From Pelobacter seleniigenes DSM 18267 (GTDB taxonomy: Bacteria > Desulfobacterota > Desulfuromonadia > Desulfuromonadales > Geopsychrobacteraceae): 64,000 bases of DNA. Positions 13,077-61,658 of the stretch are shown here, one piece after another; positions within the stretch are counted from its first letter, which is position 1; each line of letters opens with the position of its first letter. The position numbers were made by a program, and so were the translations under genes. The notes below the pieces were generated by a model. That model made no database searches, was not told the origin of the DNA, and worked only from the letters and a program-made list of their open reading frames with translations. The stretch covers positions 310,001 to 374,000 of the forward strand of contig NZ_JOMG01000004.1 in assembly GCF_000711225.1 (NCBI RefSeq), given 5' to 3'.

Positions 13077-13967
13077 ATGGATATTCGTGAACTTGAAATC
13101 TTTATCGCTGCTGCAGAGCAGCTCCATTTCGGCCGTGCCAGTCAGGTCTGCAACCTCAGCCCCTCGGCCCTGACCCGCACGGTGCAACGCTTGGAAGAGC
13201 AGTTGGGGCAGACCCTCTTCTTGCGCGATAACCGAACCGTGCAGCTGTCGGCAAGCGGCAAACGTTTTTATGCCTATGCCCGCCAGGCAGTGCAGGATTA
13301 CACTGATTTTCAGGCTTCTCTGAACGGTTCCCAGCCGGTTTCAGGAGCCTTGTCGCTGTATGCTTCGATTACTGCCGTGTACAGTGTCCTGCCCGACCTG
13401 CTCGAATCTTTTCGCAAAACCTACCCCGAAGTCCATCTCGATTTAAAGACCGGCGCGGCTGAAAAAGCAGTGGCTCAGGTTGAAGCGGGGGAGATCGATA
13501 TTGCCGTAGCCGCACTCCCGGACCGGCGTAGCGCCGGAATCGTCTTCCTGCCGATCATGACCACTGCGCTGGTTTTTATCGCCACCCGGGCCCAGGCGGA
13601 AGAACTGCAACGGCATCGGCAGGGGAGCTTCAATCTGCAGCAGCTGCCGCTGGTGCTGCCGGAATCCGGGCTGTCACGCCGCCGGTTGGAACAATGGCTG
13701 AAAAAAAATCGCGTGACTCCAAATATCAGCGCCGAAGTCTCCGGCAATGAAGCCATCATTCCCATGGTGCATCTTGGCGGGGGGATCGGGATTGTGCCAC
13801 GCCTGGTGCTTGAGCGCAGCCCGTTTCGTGAAGAGGTTGTGGTCCTGGAACAGGCGCCTGAACTGGATCCTTATGTGGTCGGACTCTGTTCCAGCAAACG
13901 GAATCTGCAAAAACCAGCAGTCCAGGCCTTCTGGGGGCTGGCCGAGCTAAACTCTGCGCCAGCTTGA
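13077..13967 (+). CDS. ilvY: LysR-type regulator IlvY
   Basis: 296 residues, the usual length. N-terminal winged helix-turn-helix ([20 protein letters not shown] ... [17 protein letters not shown]) and a C-terminal LysR effector-binding domain. In enterobacteria IlvY senses acetolactate/acetohydroxybutyrate and activates ilvC; the divergent placement next to a class II ilvC supports the same job here. The ribosome site before ATG 13077 is modest (AGAGGCGG). The assignment as IlvY, rather than another LysR protein, rests on sequence similarity as remembered and on context. Confidence 0.9.
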
Positions 13968-13986: not shown

Positions 13987-14214
13987 TTAAAGCTGCTTGG
14001 CGGTGAGCATGGCCAGGATTTGGGAATCTGCAGGGAACTCTCCGGTGGCTCGTTTGGAATAGATCAGTGCGCGATCCACAACAATTTCAAACACGCCGCC
14101 GCTGGATTCAATCAATTCAACGTCGACGGCAAACTGCTGGGCGATCTTGGCCGCCAGACTGGCGGCGCGCGCACGATATCCTCAGCGATTGCAGTATTCG
14201 ATGCTGATGTCCAT
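13987..14214 (-). CDS. SelW/Rdx-family selenoprotein with in-frame UGA
   Basis: 75-residue small redox protein of the SelT/SelW/SelH (Rdx) thioredoxin-like group. The frame starts at ATG 14214 with GAGGAGC about 8 bases upstream, reads MDISIEYCNR, meets TGA at 14182-14184, and then continues openly for 64 codons to TAA at 13987-13989. The TGA falls exactly at the second position of the family CxxU redox motif (YCNRU, then GYRARAASLA), and the downstream part (SGGVFEIVVDRALIYSKRA) matches the family's conserved beta-strand region and GVFEI signature. The stop lies 12 bases after the preceding exonuclease stop, so the two are probably an operon. Read conventionally it would end at 10 codons, so gene finders miss it. 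SECIS-like hairpin described separately. Confidence 0.85.
14150..14166 (-). promoter_or_regulatory. Candidate bacterial SECIS hairpin
   Basis: On the minus strand, 15 bases after the UGA, a perfect 6-bp GC stem GCCGCC / GGCGGC encloses AGTCT (the closing A-T also pairs, leaving a GTC loop). Bacterial SECIS elements sit in the coding region with their apical loop roughly 16-37 bases after UGA; this fits. Direct SelB recognition of this loop is inferred. Confidence 0.6.
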
Positions 14215-14225
14215 TCTTCAGCTCC

Positions 14226-14930
14226 TCAGCCGAACAGGCTGCCGGTTTTGCCAACGGGATCAAGGCGGGTTTCCCGAGCTGTTTTTTCCAGGAATGCAGG
14301 AACCTCGTCCTTGTTCATCCGGGCTATTTTTTTCATCAGGTCAAAAGGCACCTCGGCCAGTTGATAAGTAGCCTTAAGGTCGGCGACGATGCTGTTCCAC
14401 AGCTCGGCGGTCATCTCCGCATCGGCCAGGGCGCGGTGAAAACTGCCTTTGTTTTGGATCTGCTTGTAGCGCACCAGGGTTTCCAGCTTGTAGTTGATGA
14501 CATCAGGATAAACCCGGCGTGCGATCTGCAACGTGCAGCCGAAATTGAAGGGGCGGCTTTTCCCGAGCAGGCTGAATTCCGCTTCCAGAAATTTCTGGTC
14601 AAAGGATGCGTTGTGGGCGACCAGGGGATAACTGCTGATAAAGCGGGCAAAATTCTCCATCACCAACTCCGCGGGCGGAGCCTCGACCAGCATGGTATTG
14701 GAAATACCGGTGATGGTTTCAATCTCCCTGGTGATCAGGAAGCCCGGATTGATAAGGCTTTGAAACCGGTCCAGAACCGTTCCGTCACCGAGTTTGACGG
14801 CGCCGATTTCAATGGCGCGATCACCACGATCCGGGTACATGCCGGTGGTCTCAAAGTCGAGAACAATGATTGTTTCGTTATGGTCGAAGAGGTTCAAAAT
14901 AGCAAATCCTGATTTTATGGATGAATTCAT
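14226..14930 (-). CDS. DnaQ-like 3'-5' exonuclease (DEDDh)
   Basis: 234 residues of the DEDDh exonuclease superfamily. Exo I VLDFETTG (Asp, Glu), Exo II VAHNASFDQKF (Asp), Exo III HRALADA (His, Asp) are all present, so it should be active. A short C-terminal extension (about 175-234) is not a known domain to me. It resembles stand-alone epsilon/PolC-like exonucleases rather than the polymerase III epsilon fusion types. ATG 14930 has AGGA only 3-4 bases upstream; a TTG 11 codons in (14897) with AGGA 8 bases upstream is an alternative start. Followed by the selenoprotein gene in an operon. Confidence 0.85.
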   Translation of the reverse strand: MNSSIKSGFAILNLFDHNETIIVLDFETTGMYPDRGDRAIEIGAVKLGDGTVLDRFQSLINPGFLITREIETITGISNTMLVEAPPAELVMENFARFISSYPLVAHNASFDQKFLEAEFSLLGKSRPFNFGCTLQIARRVYPDVINYKLETLVRYKQIQNKGSFHRALADAEMTAELWNSIVADLKATYQLAEVPFDLMKKIARMNKDEVPAFLEKTARETRLDPVGKTGSLFG

Positions 14931-17284: not shown

Positions 17285-17375
17285 ATATTTACCGAAAGGG
17301 CAAAGCCGGAGCAATCCGGTGACGCAAAGCCAACGGGTCCTTCAGAGTAAGGATGGCCGGGTTGCCGAAGAAAAT
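17285..17375 (+). ncRNA. GEMM-I (cyclic dinucleotide) riboswitch, copy 1
   Basis: Contains the class hallmarks: AAGGGCAAAGCC, the P2 stem CCGGA-GCAA-TCCGG with a GNRA loop, GACGCAAAGCC, a P3 stem around GGGTCCTT / AAGGATGGCC, and GGGTTGCCGA closing P1 (ATTT/AAAAT). The base aligned with G20 of the V. cholerae Vc2 aptamer is G, favouring c-di-GMP over cGAMP, but this lineage also uses cGAMP variants. Followed by its own terminator. Confidence 0.9.
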
Positions 17376-17507: not shown

Positions 17508-17606
17508 AGACAGATGTCTCCGAAAAGGCAAAACCGGAGTAATCCGGCGACGCAAAGCCACGGGTCCTTCAGAGTAAGGATGGCCGGGTTGCCGAAGAGA
17601 ATGCAG
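17508..17606 (+). ncRNA. GEMM-I (cyclic dinucleotide) riboswitch, copy 2
   Basis: A near-identical second aptamer: AAAAGGCAAAACC, CCGGA-GTAA-TCCGG, GACGCAAAGCC, GGGTCCTT / AAGGATGGCC, GGGTTGCCGA; P1 here is TCTC/GAGA. Position 20 (Vc2 numbering) is G by my alignment. Two aptamers in series can make the response steeper or act as a two-input gate. Confidence 0.9.
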
Positions 17607-17712: not shown

Positions 17713-20700
17713 ATGAAAAGTCAATTCTGCAGAATGTCGGCTTGTGCCGGGCTATTGGTGCTTCTTTTTGCAACCACCGCTTTGGCCAAATCGGTCACCC
17801 TCTCCTGGGATCCCAGCCCCAGCAATATCACCGGTTATAAGATCTATTACGATACCCAGTCGGCCGAGACCCCGTTTGTCGGGATCGACGCTATCGAAGG
17901 AGATTCTCCGATCGATGTGGGGAATGTCCTGACCTATACGGTGACCGGTCTCTATGATGATGAAGACTATTATTTTGCGGTCACGGCTTATGATGGTTCC
18001 GGCAATGAAAGTACCTACTCGAATGTCGTGGTCAGTGCCGCGGTCGGAACCCAACCCCAGAACACGGCCCCGGTCCTGAACAGCATCGGCAGCAAAACCG
18101 TTGCCGAGGGGAGTCCCTTGGCGTTCACCGTCAGCGCCAGCGATGTTGACGGCGACAGTCTGAGCTACAGCGTCAGTGGATTACCGGTAGGGGCGAACTT
18201 TAACAGTTCGACCCGGGCCTTCAGTTGGACGCCGGGCTTTGGAGCGGCTGGAGACTATGCGGTCACCTTTACCGTGAATGACGGCAGTGCCACAGACAGC
18301 GAAACGGTGACAATCACCGTCAACAATGTCAACCAGGCTCCGGTCCTGAACAGCATCGGCGGCAAGATGGTCGCCGAGGGCAGTTTGCTGACATTCAAGG
18401 TCAGCGCCAGTGATGCCGACGGTGACAGTTTAAGCTACAGTGCCAGCGGGTTGCCCGTCGGGGCCAGCTTCAACAGTTCGACTCAAACTTTCAGCTGGAC
18501 ACCAGATTATACGGCCGCTGGAAGCTATGCGGTGACCTTCGCCGTGGCTGACGGACAGATCGTTGACAGTGAAACCGTAACCATCGTGGTTAATAACGTT
18601 AATCAGGCGCCGGTTCTCGGCAGCATCGGCAGCAAGATCGTTGCTGAAGGCAGCTTGCTGGCATTCTCAATCAGCGCCAGCGATGCTGATGGTGACAGCT
18701 TGAGCTACACTGCCAGCGGGCTGCCGAGCGGGGCGAGCTTCAACAGTTCGACCCGGACCTTCAGTTGGACCCCGAATTACACTTCCGCCGGCAGTTATAC
18801 GGTGATCTTTGGCGTAAACGATGGCAGTGCGACGGACAACGAGACGGTGACAATCACCGTCAGCAATGTCAACCAGGCTCCGGTCCTGAACAGCATCGGC
18901 ACCAAAACAGTTGCTGAGGGAAGTTCTTTGGCGTTCACCGTCAGTGCCAGCGATGTTGACGGCGACAGTCTGAGCTACAGCGCCAGTGGGCTGCCGGCCG
19001 GGGCGAGCTTCAACAGTTCGACCCGCACCTTCAGTTGGACGCCGGAATTTGCTGAAACGGAAAATACCCGTATCTTTGCCGTAGTTTTTGCGGCCAGTGA
19101 TGGCCGGGCTGAGGACAGTGAGCTGGTGACCATCAACGTCACCAACGTCAACCGGGCACCGGTGCTCAGCGGTATCGGCAGTCAAAACCTGGCCGCCAAC
19201 AGCGCTTTCAGCCTGACCATCAGTGGTAGTGATCCCGATAATAATGCGTTGACTTACAGTGCCGCCAACCTGCCGGCCGGGGCGACCTTTAACGCTAGCC
19301 TGAAAACTTTTAACTGGACCCCGAGTACTGCCCAGATCGGTAGTTATGCGATCACTTTCAGTGTCACTGACGGCAGCCTGAAGGACTCTGAAACAGTGAC
19401 TATGGTGGTTTCTGATAACAACTCTGCACCGGTGATCAGCGGTCAGCCCGCCAGCACCATCATGGCGACCTATCTCTACTCGTTTACGCCACTGGCCAGT
19501 GATGCCGATGGTGACAAACTGACCTTCTCCATTACCGGGAAACCGTCCTGGGCTAGTTTCGACACTTCCAGTGGGCGGCTCTACGGTAGCCCGTCCGAAA
19601 CCCAGACCGGAACTTACAGCGGCATTGTCATCGCCGTTTCGGATGGTGCCAAGAGTGCAGTTTTGCCGGCGTTCTCCATCGCCGTCAGTGCCTATGTACC
19701 TGTCGATACTGATCATGATGGTGTGCCGGACAGCATTGATGCGTTCCCCAATGACAGCAGCGAATGGCAGGATACGGACGGCGACCGGATCGGCAACGTC
19801 GCTGACCCCGATGATGATAATGACGGGGTTGCCGATATTTACGACGGGGCACCGCTGGACGCTTCTTCTTCCGCCTGGCATATCCTGGCACAGGCCGAAG
19901 CCGGAGGCTACATCAGTCCCGAGGGGGAAACCTATCTGGCTTACGGCGAATCCCAATCCTATCAGTTGACTCCCATGGCGGGTTATTACGTCAAAGACCT
20001 GCTGGTCAACGGTCGGTCGGTCGGAGCGGTCAGTACCTATGCCATTGACGGAATAGCGGAGCATTATGAGCTGAACGCTGTGTTTGAAGCCATCCCGACC
20101 GGGCTCAGCCTGAATCCCGTTGCTGAGGGGCTGGCCGGGATCGACCGCGTTGATGGTGGCGACGACAGCCATAACTATGTTGACGGCAAGCCGAAGCTGG
20201 CCCTTGACTACCGTTTCCATGTCACGTTGCGTGAGGCTTCGGTCACCGCAGACCAGCGGGTCGTTTATCTGGTCCTGGACAGCTATAAATACCGGATGAA
20301 CCTCAGCAGCGGAGCCCTGGTCAACGGTGCCGAATACGCCCTTGTCTCCAGGCTCGGCCCAGCCTATGCACACAGCTTTTATTTCATTGTCGAAGATAGC
20401 GCCGGCCACCTACTGGGTCGCTATCCCACCAGCGGCAGTCTGGAAGGCCCGGTCGTCGAACTGTTGGACGGGCGGAACCTGGTTGCTGTTGCGGCCGATA
20501 TCGACGCCAGAGCCTTGGATTCAGCCACTGCGTTCGGCAATAAGCAGGTGCAGGGCTGGTTGCCGGATGCAGGTCCGAAGGGGCAGTTCAAACTTGCTGA
20601 TTCCATCGGCGCCATTCGCAGCGGCAACGGCTACGTTATCAAGCGTGCCGACAGCGGCACTTTGCCGGATTTGAGCGGCTATGGCCAAATCACTGATGAG

Positions 20701-21009
20701 ATGATAGCCGTGCCGGTATTGCCGGGTTGGAATCTGATCGGCAACCCGTACGGCGGCGCTGTGGCCCTGGCTGATATCGATGTCCAGGTTGGGAGCGGGA
20801 TCCCGGTGCCTTGGCTCAATGCCGTAGCCGAGAATATCGTCGTCGACGGTATCTATTCCTATCTGGGCGAAGACTGGGGTGGCACTAATGAGTTTGCCAG
20901 CGCCGCTTCGGCAGTCCCGGCACAATTGATCCCCTGGATCGGCTACTGGGTCTATGTCAATCCTTCCGATGATGCAGTCACCCTGCTGATTCCGAAGCCG
21001 TTACAGTAG
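17713..21009 (+). CDS. Large secreted protein: FnIII, six Ig/cadherin-like repeats, calcium-type repeats
   Basis: 1098 residues. Signal peptide 1-25 (LLVLLFATTALA); a fibronectin type III domain (about 26-112); six repeats of 90-93 residues starting at 118, each beginning APVLxSIG and carrying VAEGS, SASDxDGDSLSYS, GLPxGAxFNSST and FSWTP (He_PIG/putative Ig type; copies 5 and 6 diverged); thrombospondin-3-like acidic repeats DTDHDGVPDSIDAFP and DPDDDNDGVADIYD (about 660-710), probable calcium sites; a roughly 75-residue beta domain (to about 795) and a C-terminal beta-rich region of unknown type. No LPXTG or transmembrane anchor. The tandem GEMM riboswitches upstream imply cyclic-dinucleotide control, fitting an adhesin or matrix role (inference). 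RBS is weak: GGGGAATACTAAATG. Confidence 0.9.
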   Translation: MKSQFCRMSACAGLLVLLFATTALAKSVTLSWDPSPSNITGYKIYYDTQSAETPFVGIDAIEGDSPIDVGNVLTYTVTGLYDDEDYYFAVTAYDGSGNESTYSNVVVSAAVGTQPQNTAPVLNSIGSKTVAEGSPLAFTVSASDVDGDSLSYSVSGLPVGANFNSSTRAFSWTPGFGAAGDYAVTFTVNDGSATDSETVTITVNNVNQAPVLNSIGGKMVAEGSLLTFKVSASDADGDSLSYSASGLPVGASFNSSTQTFSWTPDYTAAGSYAVTFAVADGQIVDSETVTIVVNNVNQAPVLGSIGSKIVAEGSLLAFSISASDADGDSLSYTASGLPSGASFNSSTRTFSWTPNYTSAGSYTVIFGVNDGSATDNETVTITVSNVNQAPVLNSIGTKTVAEGSSLAFTVSASDVDGDSLSYSASGLPAGASFNSSTRTFSWTPEFAETENTRIFAVVFAASDGRAEDSELVTINVTNVNRAPVLSGIGSQNLAANSAFSLTISGSDPDNNALTYSAANLPAGATFNASLKTFNWTPSTAQIGSYAITFSVTDGSLKDSETVTMVVSDNNSAPVISGQPASTIMATYLYSFTPLASDADGDKLTFSITGKPSWASFDTSSGRLYGSPSETQTGTYSGIVIAVSDGAKSAVLPAFSIAVSAYVPVDTDHDGVPDSIDAFPNDSSEWQDTDGDRIGNVADPDDDNDGVADIYDGAPLDASSSAWHILAQAEAGGYISPEGETYLAYGESQSYQLTPMAGYYVKDLLVNGRSVGAVSTYAIDGIAEHYELNAVFEAIPTGLSLNPVAEGLAGIDRVDGGDDSHNYVDGKPKLALDYRFHVTLREASVTADQRVVYLVLDSYKYRMNLSSGALVNGAEYALVSRLGPAYAHSFYFIVEDSAGHLLGRYPTSGSLEGPVVELLDGRNLVAVAADIDARALDSATAFGNKQVQGWLPDAGPKGQFKLADSIGAIRSGNGYVIKRADSGTLPDLSGYGQITDEMIAVPVLPGWNLIGNPYGGAVALADIDVQVGSGIPVPWLNAVAENIVVDGIYSYLGEDWGGTNEFASAASAVPAQLIPWIGYWVYVNPSDDAVTLLIPKPLQ
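18071..19429 (+). repeat. Tandem coding repeats in the secreted protein gene
   Basis: Starts of copies at about 18071, 18341, 18611, 18881, 19160 and 19430: period 270 bases, with one 279-base copy (the fourth). Copies 1, 2 and 4 keep near-identical DNA (for example CCGGTCCTGAACAGCATCGG). Recent duplication or gene conversion is likely. Confidence 0.85.
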
Positions 21010-59706: not shown

Positions 59707-59724
59707 CAGCGTTCAAGATAAAAA

Positions 59725-59982
59725 GCGATGAAAAGGAGTAGTAGGCTGTTGATCCGTCTAAGAGAGCCGGTGGTTGCTGCAAACCGGTACGGAGAACGCT
59801 GAACTCGCCTTGGAGCTGCTGGAGTGAAGCCGGTGGTTGTGGTTAGCTACAGTCGTGAGCCTGCGTAAAGGGATAAAGAAGGTTTGTCGCACCACTGGTG
59901 TTGATGAACGAACCAGGGTGGTACCGCGAAGCTGAAGCTCTCGCCCCTGTATTTTTCATACAGGAGCGGGAGCTTTTTTTAT
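59725..59982 (+). ncRNA. T-box riboswitch, leucine specific
   Basis: Has the invariant T-box AGGGTGGTACCGCG (59915-59928), the stem I AGAGAG near 59761 with a GCTG apical loop, and a likely specifier CTC (Leu) at 59804-59806 in GAACTCG. TGGU in the T-box pairs with tRNA ACCA, fitting the discriminator A of tRNA-Leu. The terminator (59935-59982) has arms AGCTCTCGCCCCTGTAT against ATACAGGAGCGGGAGCT, 15 of 17 paired, then T7. Uncharged tRNA-Leu should stabilise the antiterminator and turn on leuA. Confidence 0.93.
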
Positions 59983-60119: not shown

Positions 60120-61658
60120 ATGAAACAGGACAATATCATTATTTTTGACACCACCTTACGTGACGGTGAACAATCCCCCGGCGCCAGTATGAATATCGAA
60201 GAAAAGCTGCGGATTGCCACTCAGCTGGAACGTCTTAACGTCGACGTTATGGAAGCTGGCTTTCCCATCGCTTCGGAAGGTGACTTTGAGGCCGTTAAAA
60301 AGATCGCCCAGACGGTTAAAAACTGTCAGGTGGCCGGTTTGTCCCGGGCCAGCAATATGGATATCGATCGGGCTTGGGAAGCTTTGAAATACGCCGGCGA
60401 ACGCGGGCGGATCCATACCTTCATCGCGACCAGCGATATCCATATGAAATACAAACTGAAGATGAGTGAGCAGGAGGTCCTCGACGCGGCGGTGGCCGCA
60501 GTCAAGCGGGCCAAAAGCTACACCCCGAATGTCGAATTTTCACCGGAAGACGCGACCCGCACCAGGTTGCCGTTTCTCGCTCAGGTCGTTCAGGCCGCTA
60601 TCGAGGCTGGCGCCACGACAGTGAATATCCCGGATACGGTCGGTTATACCATTCCCACCGAATATGCCGAAATCATCCGTTACCTGAAAGCGAATGTCAG
60701 TAATATCGACCAGGCGATCATTTCCGTTCATTGCCATAACGACCTCGGGCTTGCCGTCGCCAATTCACTGGCCGCGGTTCAGGCTGGTGCCCGGCAGGTT
60801 GAGTGTACCATCAACGGGATCGGCGAGCGGGCCGGCAACTGTTCCCTTGAGGAAGTGGTGATGACCTTGCGGACTCGGCAGGATATCCTGCCTTATGCGA
60901 CCAGGGCGGTTACGGAACAGATCACTCCGGCCAGCAAGCTGCTTTCAACCATTACTGGTCTGTTGATTCAGCCGAACAAGGCGATTGTCGGTGCCAACGC
61001 CTTTGCTCACGAAGCCGGCATCCATCAGCATGGGGTGTTGATGGATAAATCCACTTACGAAATCATGACTCCCGAGTCGGTCGGCCTGAACCAGAACAAG
61101 TTGGTTCTCGGTAAGCATTCCGGGCGGCATGCCTTCATCGACCGTCTCAAACATCTCGGTTATGATCTCTCCCGGGAAGAGGTGGATAAAGCATTTACCC
61201 GCTTCAAAGCGTTGGCAGACATGAAGAAAGAGATCTTCGATGAGGATCTCGATGCCATTATCGCCGATGAAGTGCTGCGGGTTCCGGAAACTTACAAGTT
61301 GCAGCAGATGAACGTCAGTTCCGGTTCTTTTGCCGCACCGACCGCGACGGTATCCATGGAGATCGAAGGGAAAAATAAAAAGACCGCGGTCATTGGCGAT
61401 GGTCCGGTGGACGCAACCTTTAAAGCGATTAAGAAATTGACCAAAAGCAAGGCGCCGTTGCTGAACTTTTCGGTCGGGGCCATTACCGGCGGCACGGATG
61501 CCCAGGGCGAGTGTACCGTTCGCCTGCAATCCGAAGACGGTCGGGAAGTCCTTGGACAGGGGGCCCACCCGGATATCATCGTGGCCAGCGCCAAGGCCTA
61601 TATCAATGCTTTGAATAAAATTGCCGGCAATCAGAAACGGATCAAGGCCGACCTTTGA
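60120..61658 (+). CDS. leuA: 2-Isopropylmalate synthase
   Basis: 512 residues; condenses 2-ketoisovalerate with acetyl-CoA, the first step of leucine synthesis. TIM barrel with FDTTLRDGEQSPG, VHCHNDLGLAVANSL (metal His), and the C-terminal LeuA allosteric dimer domain (about 390-512) for leucine feedback. AAGGAGC before ATG 60120. First of leuACD. Confidence 0.97.
   Translation: MKQDNIIIFDTTLRDGEQSPGASMNIEEKLRIATQLERLNVDVMEAGFPIASEGDFEAVKKIAQTVKNCQVAGLSRASNMDIDRAWEALKYAGERGRIHTFIATSDIHMKYKLKMSEQEVLDAAVAAVKRAKSYTPNVEFSPEDATRTRLPFLAQVVQAAIEAGATTVNIPDTVGYTIPTEYAEIIRYLKANVSNIDQAIISVHCHNDLGLAVANSLAAVQAGARQVECTINGIGERAGNCSLEEVVMTLRTRQDILPYATRAVTEQITPASKLLSTITGLLIQPNKAIVGANAFAHEAGIHQHGVLMDKSTYEIMTPESVGLNQNKLVLGKHSGRHAFIDRLKHLGYDLSREEVDKAFTRFKALADMKKEIFDEDLDAIIADEVLRVPETYKLQQMNVSSGSFAAPTATVSMEIEGKNKKTAVIGDGPVDATFKAIKKLTKSKAPLLNFSVGAITGGTDAQGECTVRLQSEDGREVLGQGAHPDIIVASAKAYINALNKIAGNQKRIKADL

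Follow-up and report, generated by a model that had tools for sequence, protein, structure and literature searches.

The window analysed here comprises 64,000 nucleotides, and on its minus strand, from 14214 to 13987, direct reading and in-frame translation revealed an open reading frame of 75 residues that ends in a TAA stop codon (included in these positions). The translated product, MDISIEYCNRUGYRARAASLAAKIAQQFAVDVELIESSGGVFEIVVDRALIYSKRATGEFPADSQILAMLTAKQL, is that of a selW-like gene with a putative selenocysteine (Sec) at residue 11, where the only in-frame TGA of the frame (14184-14182) is located within the CNRU motif. A likely ribosome-binding site, GAGGAG (14227-14222, minus strand), lies 7 bases 5' of the ATG and overlaps the stop codon of the upstream exonuclease gene, the ATG itself being positioned 11 bases past this stop codon. 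The upstream gene (14226-14930, minus strand) encodes a DEDD-type 3'-5' exonuclease (Pfam RNase_T, E 1.9e-29), and an ilvY-like LysR regulator gene (13077-13967, plus strand; NF008722, 361 bits, cut-off 246) is the convergent downstream neighbour. Both assignments are also supported by synteny: the order exonuclease, selW, ilvY, ilvC is kept in close relatives (e.g. L023, L024, L025, L026, L077, L080 and L083). This order was not found in more distant relatives, where selW stands elsewhere. We interpret this arrangement as local gene order, in which selW is probably co-transcribed with the exonuclease gene, and not as a functional link.

The original prediction had placed at this locus a SelW/Rdx selenoprotein hidden by an in-frame UGA, and its coordinates, strand, length of 75 amino acids, single TGA and YCNRU, GVFEI and SKR residues all proved correct on direct reading; the ribosome site and the spacing to the exonuclease gene likewise fit one intact protein, as had been proposed. 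The additional claim that standard gene calling is blind here held for simple callers, the plain list of open reading frames containing no minus-strand frame of at least 60 amino acids at the selW locus, but not for curated models, which name the read-through protein.

Elsewhere in the window, ten further frames with a CxxU-type in-frame TGA were found, none of which resembled a redox protein when inspected by eye. Two tandem aptamers of the c-di-GMP-I riboswitch class are located on the plus strand at 17289-17369 and 17518-17597 (RF01051, 65.8 bits; RF03167, 64.3 bits), about 345 and 115 bases 5' of a gene for a repeat-rich, secreted-type protein of 1098 amino acids (17713-21009). The GGC subtype of the c-di-GMP-I riboswitch may respond to another cyclic dinucleotide. 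A T-box leader (59719-59951, plus strand, 123 bits) precedes a leuA-like gene (60120-61658) and a leuC-like gene, and represents ordinary leucine-type T-box regulation.

A family search with the read-through protein carrying U at residue 11 confirmed the proposed family assignment, with matches to Pfam Rdx (PF10262; E 4.2e-19, 69 bits, cut-off 22.6, residues 3-68) and to NCBIfam TIGR02174 (SelT/SelW/SelH; 53.7 bits, cut-off 34.2). Its score with the SelTWH_Campy equivalog model NF041051 was 81.0 bits, below the curated cut-off of 88, so that by this model the protein is related but not an equivalog member. Because of the strength of the Rdx match, and because relatives keep both the frame and the TGA, the open reading frame lies far beyond chance. 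The AlphaFold model, for which 24 relatives were used as input, reached a pLDDT of 95.9 and places the CxxU motif, C8-N-R-U11, at the end of the first beta strand (residues 3-8); the positions of C8 and U11 are both invariant in alignment A1. When the predicted model was compared with the PDB using Foldseek, the top matches were all SelW-related (best E 5.4e-08), in the order 2FA8, 2OBK, 2OKA, 2OJL, 2P0G and 3DEX, followed by MIEN1 and mouse SelW. These six Cys-type bacterial structures have related sequences and the same fold as the model (TM 0.78-0.91), although their chains are longer, with 103-108 residues compared to 75 here. Mouse SelW (2NPB) shares the Rdx fold and the SelW family but is more distant (TM 0.63, 25% identity). 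The predicted fold is thus thioredoxin-like, as in SelW structures.

The TGA is widely conserved. Among 53 relatives from named genomes, which belong to Desulfuromonadales, Planctomycetota, Acidobacteriota, Verrucomicrobia, Acetobacteraceae, Actinobacteria and others, 52 carry TGA at the codon for residue 11 and a single one, from Arhodomonas (L068), carries Cys. Judging by its relatives, the window most probably comes from a host of the Desulfuromonadales group. A match was detected in 75 of the 136 genomes of the window's order, with an in-frame TGA in every match with E<=1e-15. In a phylum-wide sample, an Rdx match was present in 61 of 394 genomes, at 62 places, 57 with and 5 without an in-frame TGA. 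Homologues that diverge or shift frame behind the TGA, which the original prediction had named as evidence against itself, were not what we encountered: close homologues keep the frame, the TGA and the downstream sequence, and from the UGA to the gene end no frame break was seen in the closest relatives. In one genome (G418:C134:8334-9113), a Sec-form Rdx gene (L142) is followed about 360 bases downstream by an Rdx gene without in-frame TGA (L140), possibly representing a Sec/Cys tandem pair.

Lack of selA, selB, selC and selD was the main observation expected to contradict a selenoprotein, and all four are present in the genome. Profile searches of the genome identified selA (592 bits), selB (352 bits) and selD (370 bits), each above its cut-off and located side by side on one strand of a single contig (C1:135539-139838, L075). 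The selD gene is itself a selenoprotein gene, with an in-frame TGA in its SSGUAAKIG motif. The tRNA-Sec scored 70 bits (gathering threshold 47), and its anticodon was assigned as UCA by ARAGORN. Within the order, selB exceeded the cut-off in 115 of 136 genomes, and since many of these carry no SelW match, possession of sel genes is by itself no predictor of selW.

A bacterial SECIS hairpin, at a spacing of 22 nt from the UGA, is predicted on the minus strand at 14150-14166, with a 7-bp stem and the apical loop GUC at 14157-14159. Stem, loop and spacing satisfy published rules for bacterial SECIS elements (PMC13188914), and the minimum free energy of the region is -23.3 kcal/mol over 56 nt. The hairpin energy of the window sequence is not distinctive in comparison to dinucleotide shuffles (z -1.7 to +0.6), and the case for the hairpin therefore rests on comparison. 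Across 26 sequences, the hairpin positions pair in 92.9% of cells, compared with 26-54% at slid control positions; five of the seven pairs have changed on both sides, and the covariation score was reached by none of 500 shuffles. The hairpin loops of five SelW relatives (L037, L045, L049, L052 and L057) lack the usual GU and read GGGCT or GCGGC, which may mark lineage-specific SelB recognition.

We weighed these observations against other explanations of the locus. A Cys-type Rdx gene might have become a pseudogene here through mutation of a TGC or TGT codon to the stop TGA, and the TGA is indeed only one base away from a Cys codon. However, the same TGA is fixed across many phyla, followed by conserved sequence without frame breaks, and the genome encodes Sec machinery; on these grounds we rejected a pseudogene, to which we assign a negligible probability. 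The UGA could also be read by a near-cognate tRNA, e.g. as Trp or Cys, or be reassigned, and the inserted residue cannot be told from sequence alone. Against this, neighbouring genes, among them the exonuclease gene, use UGA as a regular stop codon; tRNA-Sec(UCA), SelA, SelB and SelD are available for Sec decoding, and the SECIS-type hairpin is conserved. Near-cognate read-through and code reassignment were thus rejected based on conservation, the normal stop function of UGA and the Sec machinery, and are extremely improbable.

A further possibility concerns the hairpin only, which might be no SECIS element but a mere palindromic coding of the AASLA residues: GCN-GCN-AGT-CTG-GCN-GCN is nearly self-complementary through coding alone. 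Because the coding of AASLAA already provides part of the palindrome, we examined the synonymous choice at two third-position pairs in 65 distinct sequences. These pairs hold in a fraction of 0.923 of the cells, whereas permuting the codons of the same residue within columns gave a mean of 0.756 and a maximum of 0.808, figures which are not probabilities, as the sequences are related. When codons were instead sampled from other parts of the gene, the third-position pairs held in 40% of cells, at most 52%. Moreover, the Ser at the hairpin is encoded by AGT in 48 of 49 Ser-bearing rows, compared to 29 of 299 pooled Ser codons downstream, and the Sec form L142 retains the stem in spite of other residues (ASRVEA). 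The Cys forms examined, which show ETLA, AAWL, EDLA or AAWM where the window protein has AASLA, are without the AGT loop. The covariation of the hairpin between phyla thus goes further than the protein sequence can account for, and we regard palindromic coding as very unlikely.

Taken together, the machinery, the conserved TGA, the covarying SECIS-type hairpin and the fold match uphold the selenocysteine reading, and the gene almost certainly encodes a SelW-like selenoprotein of the Rdx family, in which UGA-11 would be read as Sec by means of SelB and the downstream hairpin; Sec insertion at this codon is inferred, with strong support from the sequence. SelB carrying Sec-tRNA(Sec) would bind the mRNA hairpin just downstream of the UGA and insert Sec at codon 11, resulting in a small protein of thioredoxin fold with C8-x-x-U11 as its putative redox pair. 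Judging from the family, C8 and U11 probably cycle between a selenenylsulfide and the reduced form in thiol redox exchange.

SelW-like selenoproteins of bacteria were described in 2005 as the most abundant selenoprotein family of the Sargasso Sea, in a study that called the function of SelW unclear, considered the CxxU motif suggestive of a redox role and placed eukaryotic SECIS elements in the 3' UTR (PMC1088965). Reports for Geobacter sulfurreducens and Desulfotalea psychrophila followed in 2006 (PMC1794560), and in 2008 SelW-like proteins were the most numerous selenoprotein family of the GOS data, with 427 sequences (PMC2398784). The gene described here shares with those of G. sulfurreducens and D. 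psychrophila the CxxU motif, the Sec form, the SECIS element 3' of the UGA and a Sec-decoding host of the Deltaproteobacteria type (PMC1794560); it differs from them as a new sequence in another genome only, no different feature having been found.

The gene thus joins a well-known and widespread bacterial selenoprotein family and comes as little surprise. As bacterial SelW-like proteins are already known, the finding opens no new biology beyond the annotation and the SECIS signal: it corrects a gene overlooked by simple ORF callers, and the clear cross-phylum covariation of the SelW SECIS element could serve in a covariance model for annotation. Since the Cys forms have other residues at the place of the hairpin, AASLA looks dictated by the RNA, and this segment, which is conserved more strongly than any other behind the Sec, might be kept mainly because its codons make the SECIS loop and stem. 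We consider the chances of this evenly balanced; the comparison comprises five Cys sequences and confounds a released constraint with shared descent of the Cys branch. If true, an RNA signal would dictate protein sequence in this family, and Cys lineages would be free to carry residues such as AAWM or ETLA.
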